The notes under the pieces were generated by a model. That model saw only the letters and a program-made list of their open reading frames with translations. It was not told the origin of the DNA and ran no database searches. From contig JACRJI010000016.1 of assembly GCA_016235665.1 (NCBI GenBank), forward strand, positions 62,001 to 126,000: a stretch of 64,000 nt of DNA, in the 5' to 3' direction. Origin of the DNA: a candidate division TA06 bacterium (GTDB lineage: Bacteria > Edwardsbacteria > AC1 > EtOH8). Position 1 is the stretch's first letter; each line of letters opens with the position of its first letter. Made by a program: the position numbers and the translations under genes. Below are positions 36,883 through 62,909 of this stretch, in pieces.

Positions 36883-38118
36883 TCAGGTCTTCCCCATCAG
36901 CGTCAGCACCAGCAGGATCAGCGAGGCCAGCACTATCCCGGCCACCGAGATCAGAGCGGCGATGTTGTAGAATTTTGAATTTACATGGTTCCCCATCACG
37001 TCCCGGTTGTTCAACAGCAGCAGGATGAAGATCAGGATGATGGGCAGCAGGATGCCCTGCACAGTCTGGGCGAACAGCATCACTTTGATCAGGGGCAGGC
37101 CTGGGATCAGGATGGCCGCCCCGCCCAGTATCAGCAGCAGGGTGTACAGGCTGAAGAATATGGGGGCCTGGTTGAAGTTCTTGTTGATTCCGGTCTCCAT
37201 CCCAAAGGCCTCGCAGATGGCGTAGGAGGTGGACAGGGGCACGATGGAGGCGGCCATCATCGAGGCCACGAACAGCCCCAGGGCAAAAAGCACCGAGGAA
37301 TATTTTCCGGCGATGGGAGCCAGGGCCAGGGCGGCGTCCTCGGCGTTGTGCACAGGAATGCCGGCCTTGAACAGGGTGGCGGCGCAGGTGACAATGATGA
37401 AAAAGGAGATGAAGTTGGTGAAGAAGGTCCCCACGAACACATCCAGCTTGGCATAGTTGTAATGCTTCATGGTGATCCCCTTGTCCACGATCGAGGACTG
37501 CAGGTAGAACTGCATCCAGGGGGTGATGGTGGTGCCGATGGTGGCGATGAAGATCACCCAGTAATCCGCCTTCCAGACCAGGGTCGGCCTGATCAGGCTG
37601 CCCACCGCCCGGCCCCAGTCCGGCTTGGACATGAACCCGGCGATGACATAGGCGGCGAAGAACAAAGCCACTATCAGGAAGAACCTTTCCACAAAACGGT
37701 AGGAACCCTTGACCACCAAAAGCCAGAGGGCCAAAACCGTCACCGGAACGGAGACGTACTTGCTGACCCCCAGGATCTCCAGGCTGGCCGCGATCCCGGC
37801 GAAATTGGCGATGGTGGTGGTGAAATTGGCCACCAAAAGGACGATCATGGCAAACAGCGTCCAGCGCAGGCCGAACTCCTCCCGGATCAGGTCGGACAGC
37901 CCCTTGCCGGTGACCGCCGCCAGCCGGGCCACCATCTCCTGGAAAAAGGCCAGCACGAAGGTGATCAACAGCAGCATCCACAGCAGGGAATACCCGTAGC
38001 GGGCCCCGGCGATGGAGTAGGTGGTGATGCCTCCGGCGTCGTTGTCGGCAAAGGAGGTGATCAGGCCCGGCCCCACTATGCCGAAGATCAGCACCAATTT
38101 TATCCAGAGTTTCTTCAT
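36883..38118 (-). CDS. Nramp-family-like divalent cation transporter with altered metal site
   Basis: This 411-residue inner-membrane protein has about 11 helices. Helix 1 has GPGLITSFADNDAGG where Nramp proteins have the DPGN metal motif: the aspartate is kept (D27) but the asparagine is glycine (G30). Helix 6 has GTTITPW (195-201) where GAT.MPH is usual, so the metal-coordinating methionine is threonine (T199) and the histidine is tryptophan (W201). Loss of the sulfur ligand points away from Mn/Fe toward harder ions such as Mg. It begins one base after the MgtE-N/CBS gene. Magnesium transport is an inference from the site change plus context. Confidence 0.85.
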   Translation of the reverse strand: MKKLWIKLVLIFGIVGPGLITSFADNDAGGITTYSIAGARYGYSLLWMLLLITFVLAFFQEMVARLAAVTGKGLSDLIREEFGLRWTLFAMIVLLVANFTTTIANFAGIAASLEILGVSKYVSVPVTVLALWLLVVKGSYRFVERFFLIVALFFAAYVIAGFMSKPDWGRAVGSLIRPTLVWKADYWVIFIATIGTTITPWMQFYLQSSIVDKGITMKHYNYAKLDVFVGTFFTNFISFFIIVTCAATLFKAGIPVHNAEDAALALAPIAGKYSSVLFALGLFVASMMAASIVPLSTSYAICEAFGMETGINKNFNQAPIFFSLYTLLLILGGAAILIPGLPLIKVMLFAQTVQGILLPIILIFILLLLNNRDVMGNHVNSKFYNIAALISVAGIVLASLILLVLTLMGKT

Positions 38119-38119
38119 G

Positions 38120-39343
38120 TCAGATCAGGCGTTTGCGGTGGGAGCGTTTCCATTTTTCCGGGACCATCAGTTCTATCACATCGTCCACCGTGATCACACC
38201 CAGCACCTGCCGGGCCTGGTCGGTCACCGGCAGCATCACCAGGTCGTACTTGGAGAACAGGTCGGCCACCTCGCTTAAGGGAGTATCCGGGCGGACCGAG
38301 GGGGTGTCGGGAGCGATCAGGTCGTCGATCTTGGACTGGGGCTGGGCCACCACCAGGTCGCGCAGAGACAGCATCCCGGCCAGCTTTTCCCCGGCCTCGG
38401 TCACGATCAGGTTATAGGCCACTTCGGGCTCGGGCTGGTCGGCCCGGAATTTATTGAGCACCTGCTCCACCGTCAGCCCCCTGGTCACCGCCAGGTAATC
38501 GTTGTTCATGATGCCGCCGGCCGAGTCCTCCGGGTACTGCAGCAGTTCCTGGACCTCGGCCTTTTCCTCGGATTCCATCTCGTTCATGATCTGGCGGGCG
38601 GTCTCCTGGGGCAGGTCGGAGATCAGGTCGGCGGCGTCGTCCGGCTCCATCTCCTCGATGATGTCGGCGGCGTCCTGGGGCTTGATCTCCTCCACGATAT
38701 CGCTCTGCATCTCCGGCTCCACCTCGGTCAGGGTCTCGGCCGCGGTCTCGTCGTCCAGCCGCTCCAAAAGATCCGCCCCCTGGGTGACCCCCAGTTCCTC
38801 CACGATGTCGGCGATGTCGGCCGGATGCATCTTGGAAAGCTTCTCAAAGCTGGATTTCAGGTCGGGGTCCAGCGGCTCCACGTCGGCCCAGGCTATCCGC
38901 CGCTGCATCTTTCCCGGCTTGGGCTGCAGCGATTCCGGCAGTCCCAGCCGGTTCAAAAGCCCGGCCAGCCCGGCGTCCACCCAGCGCACCAGGAAGCGGT
39001 CGCCCTCCTGCTCCACTTCGATATCGTTGACCCGGTATACTTTTTTCTTCCTGGTGTCCACCACCTGCTTGTCCAGGATGTGCTCGGCCAGCCGGATCTG
39101 GTCATCGGCCGGAGCCAGCTCCGGGCATTCGCCCAGGCTCCGCTTCAGGTAGATGTAACTGTGGCCCAGCGATTCCACGTCGTTCAGGGAAATGCTCCTC
39201 TCCCGTCCCTCATTGTCCAGGATCACCAGACCGGCCAGTTCGGCCTGGGTGGGCCGGGCGTTCATGACCCAGTCCACCAGTTCTCCAAGGTGCTGTTTTT
39301 TGAAATGCACCTGGCGGTGAAGATAGTGCGATAGGTATCTCAT
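38120..39343 (-). CDS. PRC-barrel, MgtE N-domain and CBS-pair protein without membrane helices
   Basis: This 407-residue protein is cytoplasmic. Two PRC-barrel-like segments cover about residues 25-180 (GLVILDNEGRERSISL and QVVDTRKKKVYRVNDIEV). The MgtE intracellular N domain follows at about 185-280, with repeated 'ADIADIVEEL...ADLLERL' and 'DPADAADLI' units. A CBS pair closes at about 285-395 (TVEQVLNKFRA, VLGVITVDDVIELM). In MgtE these same domains sense Mg2+ and gate the attached pore; here the pore is missing and an Nramp-like transporter is encoded one base downstream. It overlaps the upstream PRC gene by ATGA. Confidence 0.9.
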   Translation of the reverse strand: MRYLSHYLHRQVHFKKQHLGELVDWVMNARPTQAELAGLVILDNEGRERSISLNDVESLGHSYIYLKRSLGECPELAPADDQIRLAEHILDKQVVDTRKKKVYRVNDIEVEQEGDRFLVRWVDAGLAGLLNRLGLPESLQPKPGKMQRRIAWADVEPLDPDLKSSFEKLSKMHPADIADIVEELGVTQGADLLERLDDETAAETLTEVEPEMQSDIVEEIKPQDAADIIEEMEPDDAADLISDLPQETARQIMNEMESEEKAEVQELLQYPEDSAGGIMNNDYLAVTRGLTVEQVLNKFRADQPEPEVAYNLIVTEAGEKLAGMLSLRDLVVAQPQSKIDDLIAPDTPSVRPDTPLSEVADLFSKYDLVMLPVTDQARQVLGVITVDDVIELMVPEKWKRSHRKRLI

Positions 39344-39966
39344 AGGTTTATCAGGTCCTTAAGCATCTCCTGGGAGATGGAAAGTTTTATCCTTTTCATT
39401 TCGTTGTCAAACTGCTCCACCAGGTCCCACATGATGATGTTTTCCATGATCTTCACGTTCAGCAGATTGGCCACCCGCACCAGCCGCCGCCCCGCCCCCA
39501 GCCGGTACAACAGGCCCTTGATGCCGGTCTCCACCCCCACCAGCCGGAGGTGCTCGTTGAAGGCCTTCAGCTTAACGTCGTTGACCCGGAGGATCTTGCG
39601 GCCTTCGTTGTCCACTATCTGCTGGTCCATCACGTTCTTCTTCAACAGCAGCTCCCTCTGGTTCAGCTTGCCGGTCTTCACTTCGCTGAAGGCGATGCCC
39701 AGGGCGATCCCGTCCTCATCCAGGCTTTTCACCTGGCGCCAGGGAATGACGGCCTCGAATTTGGCCGAGCCGAACAGGCTGATCCTCAACTTGACCGCCA
39801 CCACCAGCGAGGAGACATTGGGGAATTCCTCGCCCATGGTGATGGCCAGGTCGGACACCCGCCCGATCTTGATTCCTTCCTTGTCAAAGACCCAGAGATC
39901 CAGGAAGTCCTTGGTAAAGCTGGTGGCCTGCTCGGGCAGGGAGATGTTCTTCTTGCTGTTGGGCAT
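39340..39966 (-). CDS. PRC-barrel domain protein
   Basis: This 208-residue cytoplasmic protein has two PRC-barrel-like repeats, LWVFDKEGIKIGRVSDL (about 27-43) and QQIVDNEGRKILRVNDVKL (about 114-132), and ends in a helical tail. It is homologous in layout to the N-terminal part of the next protein, with which it overlaps by four bases. It is the first gene of the PRC / MgtE-N-CBS / Nramp-like operon and may act as a regulator or assembly partner. Known PRC domains bind RNA or membranes in other settings; nothing specific can be assigned. Confidence 0.85.
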   Translation of the reverse strand: MPNSKKNISLPEQATSFTKDFLDLWVFDKEGIKIGRVSDLAITMGEEFPNVSSLVVAVKLRISLFGSAKFEAVIPWRQVKSLDEDGIALGIAFSEVKTGKLNQRELLLKKNVMDQQIVDNEGRKILRVNDVKLKAFNEHLRLVGVETGIKGLLYRLGAGRRLVRVANLLNVKIMENIIMWDLVEQFDNEMKRIKLSISQEMLKDLINL

Positions 39967-39979
39967 TTATGACCGTTCG

Positions 39980-40032
39980 GCGTTTAACGTTTAACGTTTG
40001 ACGTTTACAGTTGACAAGTTTACAGTTTAGCG
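39980..40032. repeat. Heptamer array (cgtttaa type)
   Basis: Degenerate 7-bp units cgtttaa, cgtttaa, cgtttga, cgtttac, agttgac and others run through the 178-bp gap ahead of the PRC operon. Confidence 0.75.
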
Positions 40033-40105
40033 TCCATTCGTTTGTCAGACAAGCCGGCCTTCTTCAGGACAAGTTTAGTGCTTACCGTTAAGCGTATACG
40101 TATTA

Positions 40106-40150
40106 CACTTCACACTTCACACTTCACACTTCACACTTCACGTTTCACAG
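40106..40150. repeat. Heptamer array (cacttca, five or six units)
   Basis: Near-perfect tandem copies of cacttca end at the stop codon of the zinc-ribbon gene (40145-40147); the array overlaps its last codon. Confidence 0.85.
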
Positions 40151-40651
40151 TTTAGGCAGGTATTCCGCCAGCTGCTTGAAGAACCGCACCGCTTCAGGGT
40201 CCCTGAATTTTTGGCTCCACAGGTGGGCCGCCAAACCGGACTGGCACAGGCCATAGTATCCTAAAACGATCTGTCCCACCGCGATGTAACCGGTGGCCAG
40301 CTGCCCCATCCCGAACAGCAGGGCTACCGCGATCTGGGCGATGGCCGTGGTTCCCAGGATGATCTGGCCGAAGCCGAACACTATCCCCACCCCGAACTGG
40401 GCGATGGTGATGGCGCCGATGCCGAACTGCCCGATGGCGATCCAGCCCCTGGCCACCCTGAGCTTGCCGTTACGGTCCTTGCCGACCGAGACGTGTACCA
40501 AGGGCCAGCCATAGTAGGATGTTTTGGACTTCCAGTCGAAGCCCCACCCGTTCCAGCTTTGGTTGGCCGGCTGGGGAGCCCCGCAGTGGGGGCAACTCCG
40601 GGCATTGGGGCTGACCTCCTTTTTGCATTCCCGGCAGCTGGACAGGCTCAT
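40145..40651 (-). CDS. Zinc-ribbon protein with glycine/glutamine decapeptide-like repeats
   Basis: This 168-residue protein has a zinc ribbon at residues 6-25 (CREC and CPHC). A region from about 67 to 145 then holds about seven repeats of 9-11 residues, each ending in G/A-Q-F/I/L (IAIGQF, ITIAQF, GFGQI, AIAQI, GMGQL, IAVGQI). The regular spacing and lack of charge suggest a beta-solenoid or a set of membrane hairpins. I do not recognise the family. The ATG at 40651 overlaps the stop of the preceding 100-codon gene by ATGA and begins just ahead of the zinc ribbon; an earlier in-frame ATG would run in another gene's coding region. Confidence 0.7.
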   Translation of the reverse strand: MSLSSCRECKKEVSPNARSCPHCGAPQPANQSWNGWGFDWKSKTSYYGWPLVHVSVGKDRNGKLRVARGWIAIGQFGIGAITIAQFGVGIVFGFGQIILGTTAIAQIAVALLFGMGQLATGYIAVGQIVLGYYGLCQSGLAAHLWSQKFRDPEAVRFFKQLAEYLPKL

Positions 40652-40976: not shown

Positions 40977-41528
40977 TCATTTTTTATTTATGGTCGGTCG
41001 GTCAGGGTTTTTGTCATCCTGCGCCCAGTATAAAGGATTTTCGAGTATATATTGTCTTATTCTATCGTATGATTTATCGTTTCGGATGACATGTTCAAAA
41101 TAATTACGTTGCCATATTTTGTGACCCTGCGTATTACGCAATTTATTTATTTGACGGGTCACCGCCGCCGTGTAACAACGGATGATTGTTGGCAATGATC
41201 CTGCGACGGGTTTTCCAAAACATTCGGTCGTACCCGTAGGGGCACGATGCATCGTGCCCCTACAATGATCATTATCTGTTATTATCAATATCCCGTGAAT
41301 ATGATTCGGCATAACCACAAATACGTCCGGCATGACATATGGCCGCAATTCACCGGTTTTAACCCATTCATTGCGTGCAATTTCTCCGTATGGGTTTAAT
41401 TTCATTTGCCCATTGGTTATTTCGCCAAACAAACATTTGCGGTCACGAGCGCAGATTGTAACGTAATACGCCCCTTCCTGCGAATAATCATATTCCGGCA
41501 GGCGGATGGAACGACGGTGATTCAACAT
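40977..41528 (-). mobile_element. RAYT-type (REP-associated tyrosine) transposase gene
   Basis: This 183-residue Y1-type HUH transposase has an opening RRSIRLPEYDYSQEGAYYVTICARDR, the metal-binding HUH motif MPNHIHGIL (near residue 73), and a C-terminal WQRNYFEHVIRNDKSYDRIRQYI block with the expected catalytic tyrosine near residue 160. This is the layout of IS200/IS605-related single-gene REP transposases. It starts 4 bp after the stop of amrA, so it may be read from that transcript. No flanking repeats mark a classical insertion sequence. A perfect 28-bp palindrome lies within its coding sequence. Confidence 0.9.
41236..41263. repeat. Perfect 28-bp palindrome with GTAG foot inside the RAYT gene
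   Basis: The arms gtaggggcacgatg and its exact complement abut with no loop. GTAG at the foot of a hairpin is the tetranucleotide that REP elements carry for RAYT recognition. The palindrome is in frame and encodes part of CRGTMHRAPTG. Confidence 0.9.
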
Positions 41529-41532
41529 GTTA

Positions 41533-42087
41533 TTATTTCAGGTCCTTTTCCTCTATTACCTCGGCCTCAAACACAAACAACTTCGTCTCCTTCTCCCTCC
41601 AGGCCCCGGCCGGCAGGCCCGCCTTGTGGGCGCAGAGATAATTCAAGGTCTCCTCGCCTGTCCAGCCCTCTTCGGCCGCCACCTGCGGCAAGAACACCCC
41701 GGAGCGCCCGCCCCGCTGGACTATTATCCCGTGCTGGCCGGGAATGAATTCTTCCGGAGAACCTATCTGCCTTTTCGGTGTCAGCACCGAGATCTCGTAT
41801 TCCAAATGAGGCAGTTCTTCTTCGGTCACTTCGGGGAACCTTGGGTCGCCCACCGCCGCGGCCACCGCCATCTCGGCCACCGCTAGATACAGCGGCTTGA
41901 TGCCCTCGATGTACCCGATGCAACCCCGTAGCTGCCCCTGTTCTTTTAAGGTGACGAACACCCCGCGCAGTTCGGTCAGTTTTGGAGTCAGAGGTGTGAA
42001 TTTCGGTTTTGGCAGTCCCCTGACCTCAGCCTCGATGGACAGGTGAGCTATCCGAAAAAGCTCTTTTTTTTCTTCTGTGGTTAACAT
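41533..42087 (-). CDS. amrA: AmmeMemoRadiSam system protein A (AMMECR1 domain)
   Basis: This 184-residue cytoplasmic protein has the AMMECR1 core: RGVFVTLKEQGQLRGCIGY, the middle DPRFPEVTEEEL segment and LPQVAAEEGW followed by YLCAHKAGLPAGAW. It belongs with MEMO1-like and radical SAM proteins in the 'AmmeMemoRadiSam' set, which is thought to carry out a poorly understood modification. Its partner B gene is 62 bp upstream. A dedicated radical SAM partner (AmrS) is not adjacent; the two radical SAM genes in this window are of other types. The RAYT gene follows directly. Confidence 0.95.
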   Translation of the reverse strand: MLTTEEKKELFRIAHLSIEAEVRGLPKPKFTPLTPKLTELRGVFVTLKEQGQLRGCIGYIEGIKPLYLAVAEMAVAAAVGDPRFPEVTEEELPHLEYEISVLTPKRQIGSPEEFIPGQHGIIVQRGGRSGVFLPQVAAEEGWTGEETLNYLCAHKAGLPAGAWREKETKLFVFEAEVIEEKDLK

Positions 42088-42149
42088 ATTTTTAATTATG
42101 ATCTGCCGACTGAGATCTGGGATGTTTTTTATTTTTGATTTCTGATCTT

Positions 42150-42995
42150 TTATTTTGTCCTGTAGAGCCCCGCAGCCAGATACCCCACCACCTGCTCCTT
42201 CTCGCCCGTTATGTCTCCCGAGGTCCGGTAATCGTAGACCACGCCCTTATCCGCCCCCAGCAGTTTGCAGGCGATCATCACGGCCACTATTGGCCCGCCT
42301 CCGCAGGCCTCGCATTTCTCGAAGGCCAGCTCCCCGGCCAGTTTTTCGGGGTCGTAGTTCTCGATCGCCCTGGCCACCTTCTGGTCCAGCTTCCTGGCCT
42401 CGGCCTGGGAGTGAAAGTGTGACAGGTCGCTGGAGGCCAACAGCATCACTCCATCGTCCCCTTTGACCGCCCGGACTATGGAGTGGGCCAGCCTTTCGCA
42501 GGAGGACAGGGAATGATCGGACATCATGATGGGAACGATCCTGAACCCGGGTTCCAAAACTGTCTGCAGGAAGGGCAGCTGGATCTCCAGCGAATGCTCC
42601 TGGGCGTGGGCCGCCGGCAGATCATTGATATGGGTCTGGTCCTGGCCGATGATCTTCTGGCAGAGACCAGCATCGATCCCCACTTTGCCCAGCGGGGTCT
42701 CCCATTCGCCGGAGGCATAGACCGCAGCACCATCGAAATAGGCGCGGTGGCTTGGACCTATCAGCACCACGGTCTTTATGCAGAGACCTTTGAGGTTCTT
42801 GTAAGCATAGGCCGCCACCGGCCCGGAATACATCAATCCCGCGTGGGGGGCCACTATCCCCAGCAGTTCGGAATCCGTAGGATATGTTTGGGCCGCCGTC
42901 AGATACTTTTCGACCTCGGCCTTAAGCTTGGCCGCCTCGCCCGGGTACCAGCTCCCGGCAATGATGGATCGACGAATATTCATTTCACGCTTCAC
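42150..42995 (-). CDS. amrB: AmmeMemoRadiSam system protein B (MEMO1-like)
   Basis: This 281-residue cytoplasmic protein is homologous to human MEMO1, related to class III extradiol dioxygenases. The start RRSIIAGSWYPGE, VAPHAGLMYSGPVAAYAY, GPSHRAYFDGAAVY, HAQEHSLEIQLPFL and LLASSDLSHF are the family blocks and contain the metal-binding histidines. Length is normal. The protein is encoded immediately before amrA, which supports joint function. The ATG at 42995 is followed by a heptamer array just 5'. Confidence 0.95.
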   Translation of the reverse strand: MKREMNIRRSIIAGSWYPGEAAKLKAEVEKYLTAAQTYPTDSELLGIVAPHAGLMYSGPVAAYAYKNLKGLCIKTVVLIGPSHRAYFDGAAVYASGEWETPLGKVGIDAGLCQKIIGQDQTHINDLPAAHAQEHSLEIQLPFLQTVLEPGFRIVPIMMSDHSLSSCERLAHSIVRAVKGDDGVMLLASSDLSHFHSQAEARKLDQKVARAIENYDPEKLAGELAFEKCEACGGGPIVAVMIACKLLGADKGVVYDYRTSGDITGEKEQVVGYLAAGLYRTK

Positions 42996-61817: not shown

Positions 61818-62909
61818 TTATTTAACCAAAACCATCTTCCCGGCCGCAAACGGTTTTCCATTAGTTTGAAAACGGAACATATAGACTCCATTGGGAAGCG
61901 CCTCTCCCCTTTCGTTCCTGCCGTTCCAGTTAACGGCGTGTTCCCCGGCATTCAGTTTTTTCGTCCAACTATAGACCCTCCGGCCGCTCACATCATAGAT
62001 GACAAATTCTGCGGCAGCCCCGGCGGAAAGAGAGAAGCTGATGTTGGTTGAACTGGAGAACGGATTGGGCCGGCTGGGATATACTTTGATGCCCCTGGTC
62101 AGTTCCCTGTTGTCCGCTCCGCCCTCCACCCCCAGCGCCGGAAAGAAGGCCCGGCGGATCAGGGTGCTGTCCAGCACGAAGGGATTGACCTTGTTCTGCT
62201 GGTAGGCAGCTATTTTCTTGGTGCGGGTTATTTCCCGGGCATCGGCCGGGTCGCTGACATGCCAGGCATACAGTCCGTCCCTCTGGCCGGTCCACCAGGC
62301 CAGATTGGTGTCACCCAGCTGCCACATGGTCAGTACGTAGTACATGGCCCGGGCGGTATTGCCCTTTTGAGCCTCGCGCGGTTCGAATCTGACGCTGGTC
62401 AGCAGTTCGGCATACTGCTCTATGTTCGAAGTGGGAACAGTGGTGGTGATCACATTGTTGCGGTACCATTTGTTGGTCTGATTGTCCGTGATGTCGCCGA
62501 AAGGCAGCGTCCCCCGGTCGCCGTTGACCTGGACCTCGGTGGGAAACAGGTGGTGCAGGTCGGCCTCGGCGGTGCCCGAGGCCAGCATGCTCTGAGGCCA
62601 GGTATGCTCGCAGTTTATATCCAGGCTGTAGGCCCAGGTGCTGGGATCCTGACCCGGCTGCATGTAAATTTTGTAACCGCTGTAAACGCATTCCAGGCTA
62701 TCGTTCAGCTTGTCGATCACCCCATACATGGTATCGCGGCCGGCGTCGTAACCCAGGTTGGTGGTAGATTTATAAGAAGCCACCAGCGAGTTTATCAGCG
62801 TGATCCCTGTCTGCCCGGCAAATATCGTGGAATCCGGGGGCACGGTGCCGGCCCAGACTATGGAGACAGCCGTCAGGGAAAGAATAATCGTAAAATATTG
62901 TTTTTTCAC
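61818..62909 (-). CDS. Secreted endonuclease I with sorting domain
   Basis: This 363-residue nuclease has a signal peptide (about 1-20) and the endonuclease I domain (about 35-255) with NCEHTWPQS (H102), DLHHLFPT (H119, H120) and the RGTLPFGD segment. These are the ββα-metal catalytic residues. The last 80 residues form a FlgD-like sorting domain (SRPNPF, IYDVSGR, WNGRNE, NGVYMFRF). It would degrade external DNA for nutrient or defence use. It is convergent with the ABC exporter operon and divergent from the ABC-F gene. Confidence 0.94.
   Translation of the reverse strand: MKKQYFTIILSLTAVSIVWAGTVPPDSTIFAGQTGITLINSLVASYKSTTNLGYDAGRDTMYGVIDKLNDSLECVYSGYKIYMQPGQDPSTWAYSLDINCEHTWPQSMLASGTAEADLHHLFPTEVQVNGDRGTLPFGDITDNQTNKWYRNNVITTTVPTSNIEQYAELLTSVRFEPREAQKGNTARAMYYVLTMWQLGDTNLAWWTGQRDGLYAWHVSDPADAREITRTKKIAAYQQNKVNPFVLDSTLIRRAFFPALGVEGGADNRELTRGIKVYPSRPNPFSSSTNISFSLSAGAAAEFVIYDVSGRRVYSWTKKLNAGEHAVNWNGRNERGEALPNGVYMFRFQTNGKPFAAGKMVLVK

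Follow-up and report, generated by a model that had tools for sequence, protein, structure and literature searches.

The closest described counterparts of the locus analysed here are the operons that encode Nramp-related magnesium transporters (NRMTs, or NrmT). Shin et al. (2014; PMC4072509) reported that most NrmT genes adjoin a gene for an MgtE-like protein, for which they proposed a role in cytoplasmic feedback regulation, with a role as a chaperone offered as the alternative. More recent studies of how NRMTs are built and how they evolved (PMC8806188 and PMC12873925) do not, in their available passages, discuss such a sensor partner. Here we describe an operon of this type from a candidate division TA06 bacterium, located in a 64,000-nucleotide stretch of DNA (the window; positions 62,001 to 126,000 of contig JACRJI010000016.1, assembly GCA_016235665.1). 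The operon encodes a free-standing tandem PRC-barrel protein, a soluble MgtE-like protein (the sensor) and an NRMT, and its best explanation, to which we assign a probability of roughly 0.62, is that of an operon for Nramp-related Mg2+ uptake that includes a dedicated cytosolic Mg2+ sensor, which gates the transporter in trans. The locus is a further example of a published and widespread arrangement. What the analysis adds is a description of the Mg2+ sites that are retained or lost in the sensor family, of the PRC front end of the sensor, and of a free-standing PRC gene that has outlived the transporter in two relatives. A first-pass annotation made from the sequence alone had presented gating by a separate MgtE sensor as a new idea, but the association and the feedback proposal both date from the 2014 study.

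The three open reading frames (ORFs) all lie on the minus strand in the order PRC gene (39340-39966, 208 aa), sensor gene (38120-39343, 407 aa) and transporter gene (36883-38118, 411 aa), with a 4-bp overlap (ATGA) between the first two and a 1-bp gap between the last two. This layout is exactly as the first-pass annotation had it, and its protein identities also held up when assessed by Pfam, by a family hidden Markov model (HMM) run on near-identical orthologues, and by AlphaFold modelling. Specifically, Pfam assigns a PRC domain to the first protein (5.3e-06), MgtE_N (2.9e-29) plus two CBS domains (8.6e-17) to the second, and Nramp (6.6e-96) to the third.

Judged by its sequence, the transporter is of the NRMT (magnesium) type and not a Mn/Fe Nramp. 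Its closest solved relative is EleNRMT (PDB 7qia; 1.6e-109), followed at a considerable distance by a canonical Nramp (3.8e-29), and it scores 129 bits against the NCBIfam MntH model, for which the cut-off is 430. The ion site comprises D27-A-G-G30 in transmembrane helix 1 (TM1; 38029-38040) and T196-T-I-T199-P-W201 in TM6 (37516-37533), which corresponds to the NRMT signature of DxxG in TM1, TxxA/T in TM6 and a TM6 His changed to Trp, as set out in PMC8806188. The DPGN (TM1) and MPH (TM6) motifs of canonical Mn/Fe Nramps (MntH) are absent from the transporter, which has DAGG and TPW instead, so the substitutions G30, T199 and W201 pointed out at first pass are indeed present. The first-pass annotation had staked its reading on the transporter lying outside of the Mn/Fe Nramps and on the pair being conserved elsewhere, and both proved correct. 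In a tree of 55 sequences, a branch with support of 100 separates the NRMTs, including EleNRMT and the window transporter, from four canonical Nramps. Within the NRMTs, the window transporter groups with relatives from Margulisbacteria and Saganbacteria and with clostridial NRMTs under M-box control (SH-aLRT 80, a modest value).

This placement bears on the possibility that the operon instead serves Mn2+ or another divalent metal, with the sensor reading that metal. Such a view draws on the NrmT of A. capsulatum, which has an adjacent MgtE-like gene and no M-box, and which fully rescued a Mn-uptake mutant while rescuing a Mg-uptake mutant only partly (PMC4072509); the window likewise has no M-box, and its genome has a CorA for Mg2+. 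We nevertheless regard it as very unlikely given that the window ion site has neither the Met nor the Asn ligand found in Mn transporters, and that the transporter is nearer to the M-box-controlled clostridial NRMTs than to the acidobacterial ones, albeit with the modest support of 80 noted above. The missing M-box says little because M-boxes are missing from nearly all Gram-negative relatives as well. We infer that Mg2+ is the physiological substrate. The genome contains one CorA, no match to the MgtE pore domain and no P-type ATPase that exceeds the MgtA cut-off. It therefore offers at least two possible routes for Mg2+, of which the NRMT is one.

Conservation of the sensor-transporter pair was addressed with a genome-contig scan that 586 relatives passed, the best 80 of which were kept as named loci. 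The sensor gene is located at most 300 bp upstream of the transporter gene on the same strand in 63 of these 80, and, of the 65 pairs with close spacing, 25 overlap by 4 bp. Record titles of the named loci cover Firmicutes, Actinobacteria, Nitrospirae, Acidobacteria, Deltaproteobacteria, Omnitrophota, Chloroflexi and Zixibacteria, among others. Occurrence of the ion-site motif in these loci is partly circular as the search patterns contained it, while relatives in a separate 386-genome sample were found without the motif. In that sample, a sensor gene no more than 1.5 kb away accompanies 27 of the 30 NRMTs closest to that of the window, 8 of 20 with intermediate similarity and none of 15 distant NRMTs, and within the window's own family the sensor is present only where the NRMT is present. 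Additionally, an M-box riboswitch precedes the sensor-NRMT pair, or the NRMT alone, in all 13 loci whose genomes carry the riboswitch. Upstream of the operon in the window, neither an M-box nor any other credible RNA element was detected, and no M-box was found in the rest of this genome or in the window's family. A Pelosinus metagenome-assembled genome has two tandem M-boxes upstream of its pair (L089 3004-3493, plus strand). When distance matrices of the sensor domains are compared with that of the NRMT, the correlation is highest for the second PRC barrel (r 0.61), followed by the CBS region (0.47) and then the first barrel and MgtE_N (0.34 each), a comparison that is only suggestive since the domains are unequal in length and rate and shared descent was not removed.

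The sensor has the fold of the MgtE cytosolic half. Residues 143-403 align with Thermus MgtE (1.7e-41), and an AlphaFold model built from 51 sequences (predicted local distance difference test, pLDDT, 90.6) superimposes on the MgtE cytosolic domain (2yvy) with a TM-score by target of 0.85 and a root-mean-square deviation of 2.3. There is no match to the MgtE pore domain (PF01769) in the sensor, and no membrane segment either in it, as the first-pass annotation had stated (19-residue Kyte-Doolittle maximum 1.17), or in the free-standing PRC protein. The N-terminal 158 residues (38870-39343) form a tandem PRC region that is missed by Pfam but is detected by the family HMM in near-identical orthologues and is evident in the AlphaFold model; in this region D91, Q93, D96, N106 and D107 (sensor numbering) are invariant in 51 sensors. 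It is followed by the MgtE_N domain (residues 172-273; 38525-38830), the CBS pair (residues 274-396; 38156-38524) and a basic C-terminal tail (residues 397-407, the KWKRSHRKRLI region; 38123-38155).

We then located in the sensor the counterparts of those residues that are implicated in MgtE gating by mutagenesis (PMC5882242). The interdomain sites Mg4 (D91 and D247 in MgtE numbering), Mg6 (D95) and Mg7 (E59) are identical in the window sensor, where the counterparts of MgtE E59, D91 and D95 are E203, D235 and D239 and that of D247 is D388. At Mg5, D226 is identical (D367) and D250 is replaced by Glu (E391). In contrast, the plug-helix sites Mg2 and Mg3 (E258 and D259) are K399 and R400 in the window sensor, and are mostly Lys, Arg or a gap across 73 sensors. 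Among 59 acidic positions ranked by conservation in these 73 sensors, Asp95 is invariant (73 of 73) and ranks first, followed by E59 (7), D247 (13), D91 (15), D226 (51), E258 (55) and D259 (56). With the interdomain sites kept and the plug-helix sites basic, Mg2+ sensing may have been kept in this family while the contact with the transporter was rebuilt. For the ATP-contact residues given in PMC5529423, R187 and D188 are kept while Y170, N203, V207 and F227 are changed.

Several observations weigh against gating of the transporter by the sensor. According to Shin et al. (2014; PMC4072509), NrmT transporters were active without the sensor gene, and rescue was no better when the A. capsulatum pair was co-expressed, although no improvement is to be expected from a gate that inhibits. 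Some NRMTs, several of them under M-box control, are without a nearby sensor (L049, L059, L080 and L101). The MgtE plug-helix sites, which PMC5882242 describes as required for the conformational change of the whole MgtE molecule, are lost in the sensor, and most ATP-contact residues differ. Finally, no NRMT-sensor fusion was present among the 80 named loci and 69 genome-sample loci. The label of a "split MgtE" applied at first pass is a loose one, as the plug-helix sites are missing and no such fusion came to light. Three fusion candidates were rejected: the N-terminal stretches of a 793-aa NRMT frame (L153) and a 914-aa sensor frame (L162) are apparent over-extensions of open frames with no domain inside, and a 633-aa Nramp protein with a Usp domain (L155) is merely a distant relative. 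The latter, a distantly related Nramp protein with a C-terminal universal stress protein domain (L155 2608-4509, minus strand), is recorded here as an observation of its own.

Transport in the absence of the sensor gene, the chaperone alternative raised by Shin et al. and the loss of the plug-helix sites that couple the MgtE sensor to its pore would also fit a protein that is not a gate at all, but a Mg2+ buffer, a chaperone or a regulator of something else that is co-transcribed as both genes serve Mg2+ homeostasis. We consider this unlikely, as the tight and very widespread adjacency, the frequent translational coupling and the loss of the sensor together with the transporter in the window's family are a better fit to a stoichiometric partner. 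Gating in trans by the sensor is a plausible role for such a partner.

The free-standing PRC gene is an addition specific to this lineage. Outside the window's family the sensor is encoded by a single gene; within the family, an additional tandem PRC protein that is homologous to the sensor's PRC region precedes the sensor. The AlphaFold model of this protein (pLDDT 81) has PRC-barrel proteins as its best PDB matches, and the top Foldseek match is the CdpB1/CdpB2 PRC-barrel pair of Archaeoglobus (PDB 8qzo; E 7e-9). Identity to CdpB1/CdpB2 is about 15%. The CdpB proteins are archaeal cell-division proteins, and the match thus reflects a common fold and not a common function. As the best match is itself a pair of PRC proteins, one may reasonably guess, though not claim, that the free-standing protein pairs with the PRC region of the sensor. 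No literature was found that joins a PRC barrel with MgtE and Nramp or CBS.

Alternatively, the free-standing PRC protein may be unrelated to the transporter and merely share its transcript. In two members of the family, G007 and G008, deletions with different end points have removed the sensor and almost the entire NRMT, yet both retain an intact PRC gene that is under purifying selection (ratio of nonsynonymous to synonymous substitution, dN/dS, of ~0.11 between the two). This makes it probable that the PRC protein is of some use even when no transporter is present, unless the sensor and NRMT were lost only recently. Standalone PRC genes next to an NRMT are otherwise almost absent. Against this, the PRC protein shares homology with the PRC region within the sensor, its gene is translationally coupled to that of the sensor, a related PRC protein adjoins an NRMT in one distant genome (L172), and the losses could indeed be recent. 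On balance we hold an unrelated role to be a serious possibility that nonetheless falls short of even odds. At the deletion junctions themselves, the first sensor codons are joined to the last part of the NRMT and the PRC gene is spared (L041 3667-4520 in G008; L042 7700-8534 in G007). L172 is the one outsider in the PRC protein clade; its single run of genes has the order CorC/CNNM-type gene, tandem PRC gene, NRMT (L172 3898-7211, minus strand), and no MgtE_N gene was found in the 9-kb stretch.

Surroundings of the operon in the window were also recorded. Two short tracts of 7-bp tandem repeats (AAACGTT-type and GAAGTGT-type) fill the intergenic space that immediately precedes the PRC gene (39970-40153). 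About 1 kb upstream of the operon is an ORF that resembles a REP-associated tyrosine transposase (40977-41528, minus strand; NF047646, 2.7e-16, 59.8 bits against a curated cut-off of 80), and beyond it are genes for an AMMECR1-family protein and a Memo-like protein (41533-42995, minus strand).

For the uptake operon with its own sensor, we envision that the transporter would import Mg2+ via the NRMT ion site, without the canonical Met and His ligands and, like EleNRMT, probably without proton coupling. The soluble sensor would, like the MgtE cytosolic half, bind Mg2+ of the cytosol between MgtE_N and the CBS pair, would probably dock on the inner face of the transporter through the PRC barrels, the basic tail or both, and would damp uptake when Mg2+ is plentiful. 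The free-standing PRC protein would be a lineage accessory that may pair with the sensor PRC region. A more specific form of this scheme, in which the MgtE sensing half is a separate regulatory subunit of an unrelated LeuT-fold transporter, with the interdomain Mg2+ switch kept, the basic tail replacing the plug helix, and docking by PRC barrels that here involves pairing of the PRC protein with the sensor PRC region, is possible but doubtful. If the sensor does gate the transporter, a single Mg2+-sensing module would govern both a channel and a LeuT-fold carrier, which are unrelated transport proteins, as an example of a regulatory domain re-used in trans. The 2014 hypothesis can be tested directly on the basis of the kept interdomain sites, the basic plug-helix positions and the invariant PRC motif.

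For completeness, we compare the operon with known systems that it resembles. The sensor shares the N domain, the CBS pair and the Mg4, Mg6 and Mg7 residues with the cytosolic domain of the Thermus MgtE channel (2yvy/2zy9), but differs from MgtE in having no pore domain, in having Lys and Arg in place of an acidic plug helix, in several altered ATP-contact residues and in its added N-terminal PRC tandem. The transporter is of the same class as EleNRMT of Eggerthella lenta (7qia; PMC8806188), with the same signature including the TM6 His to Trp change, but the TM3 Glu of EleNRMT is Asn106 and its Ala is Thr199 in the window transporter. Lastly, the operons described by Shin et al. (2014; PMC4072509) have the same pairing, for which feedback gating was proposed, while the window operon is distinguished from them by the lack of an M-box and by an additional, free-standing PRC gene.
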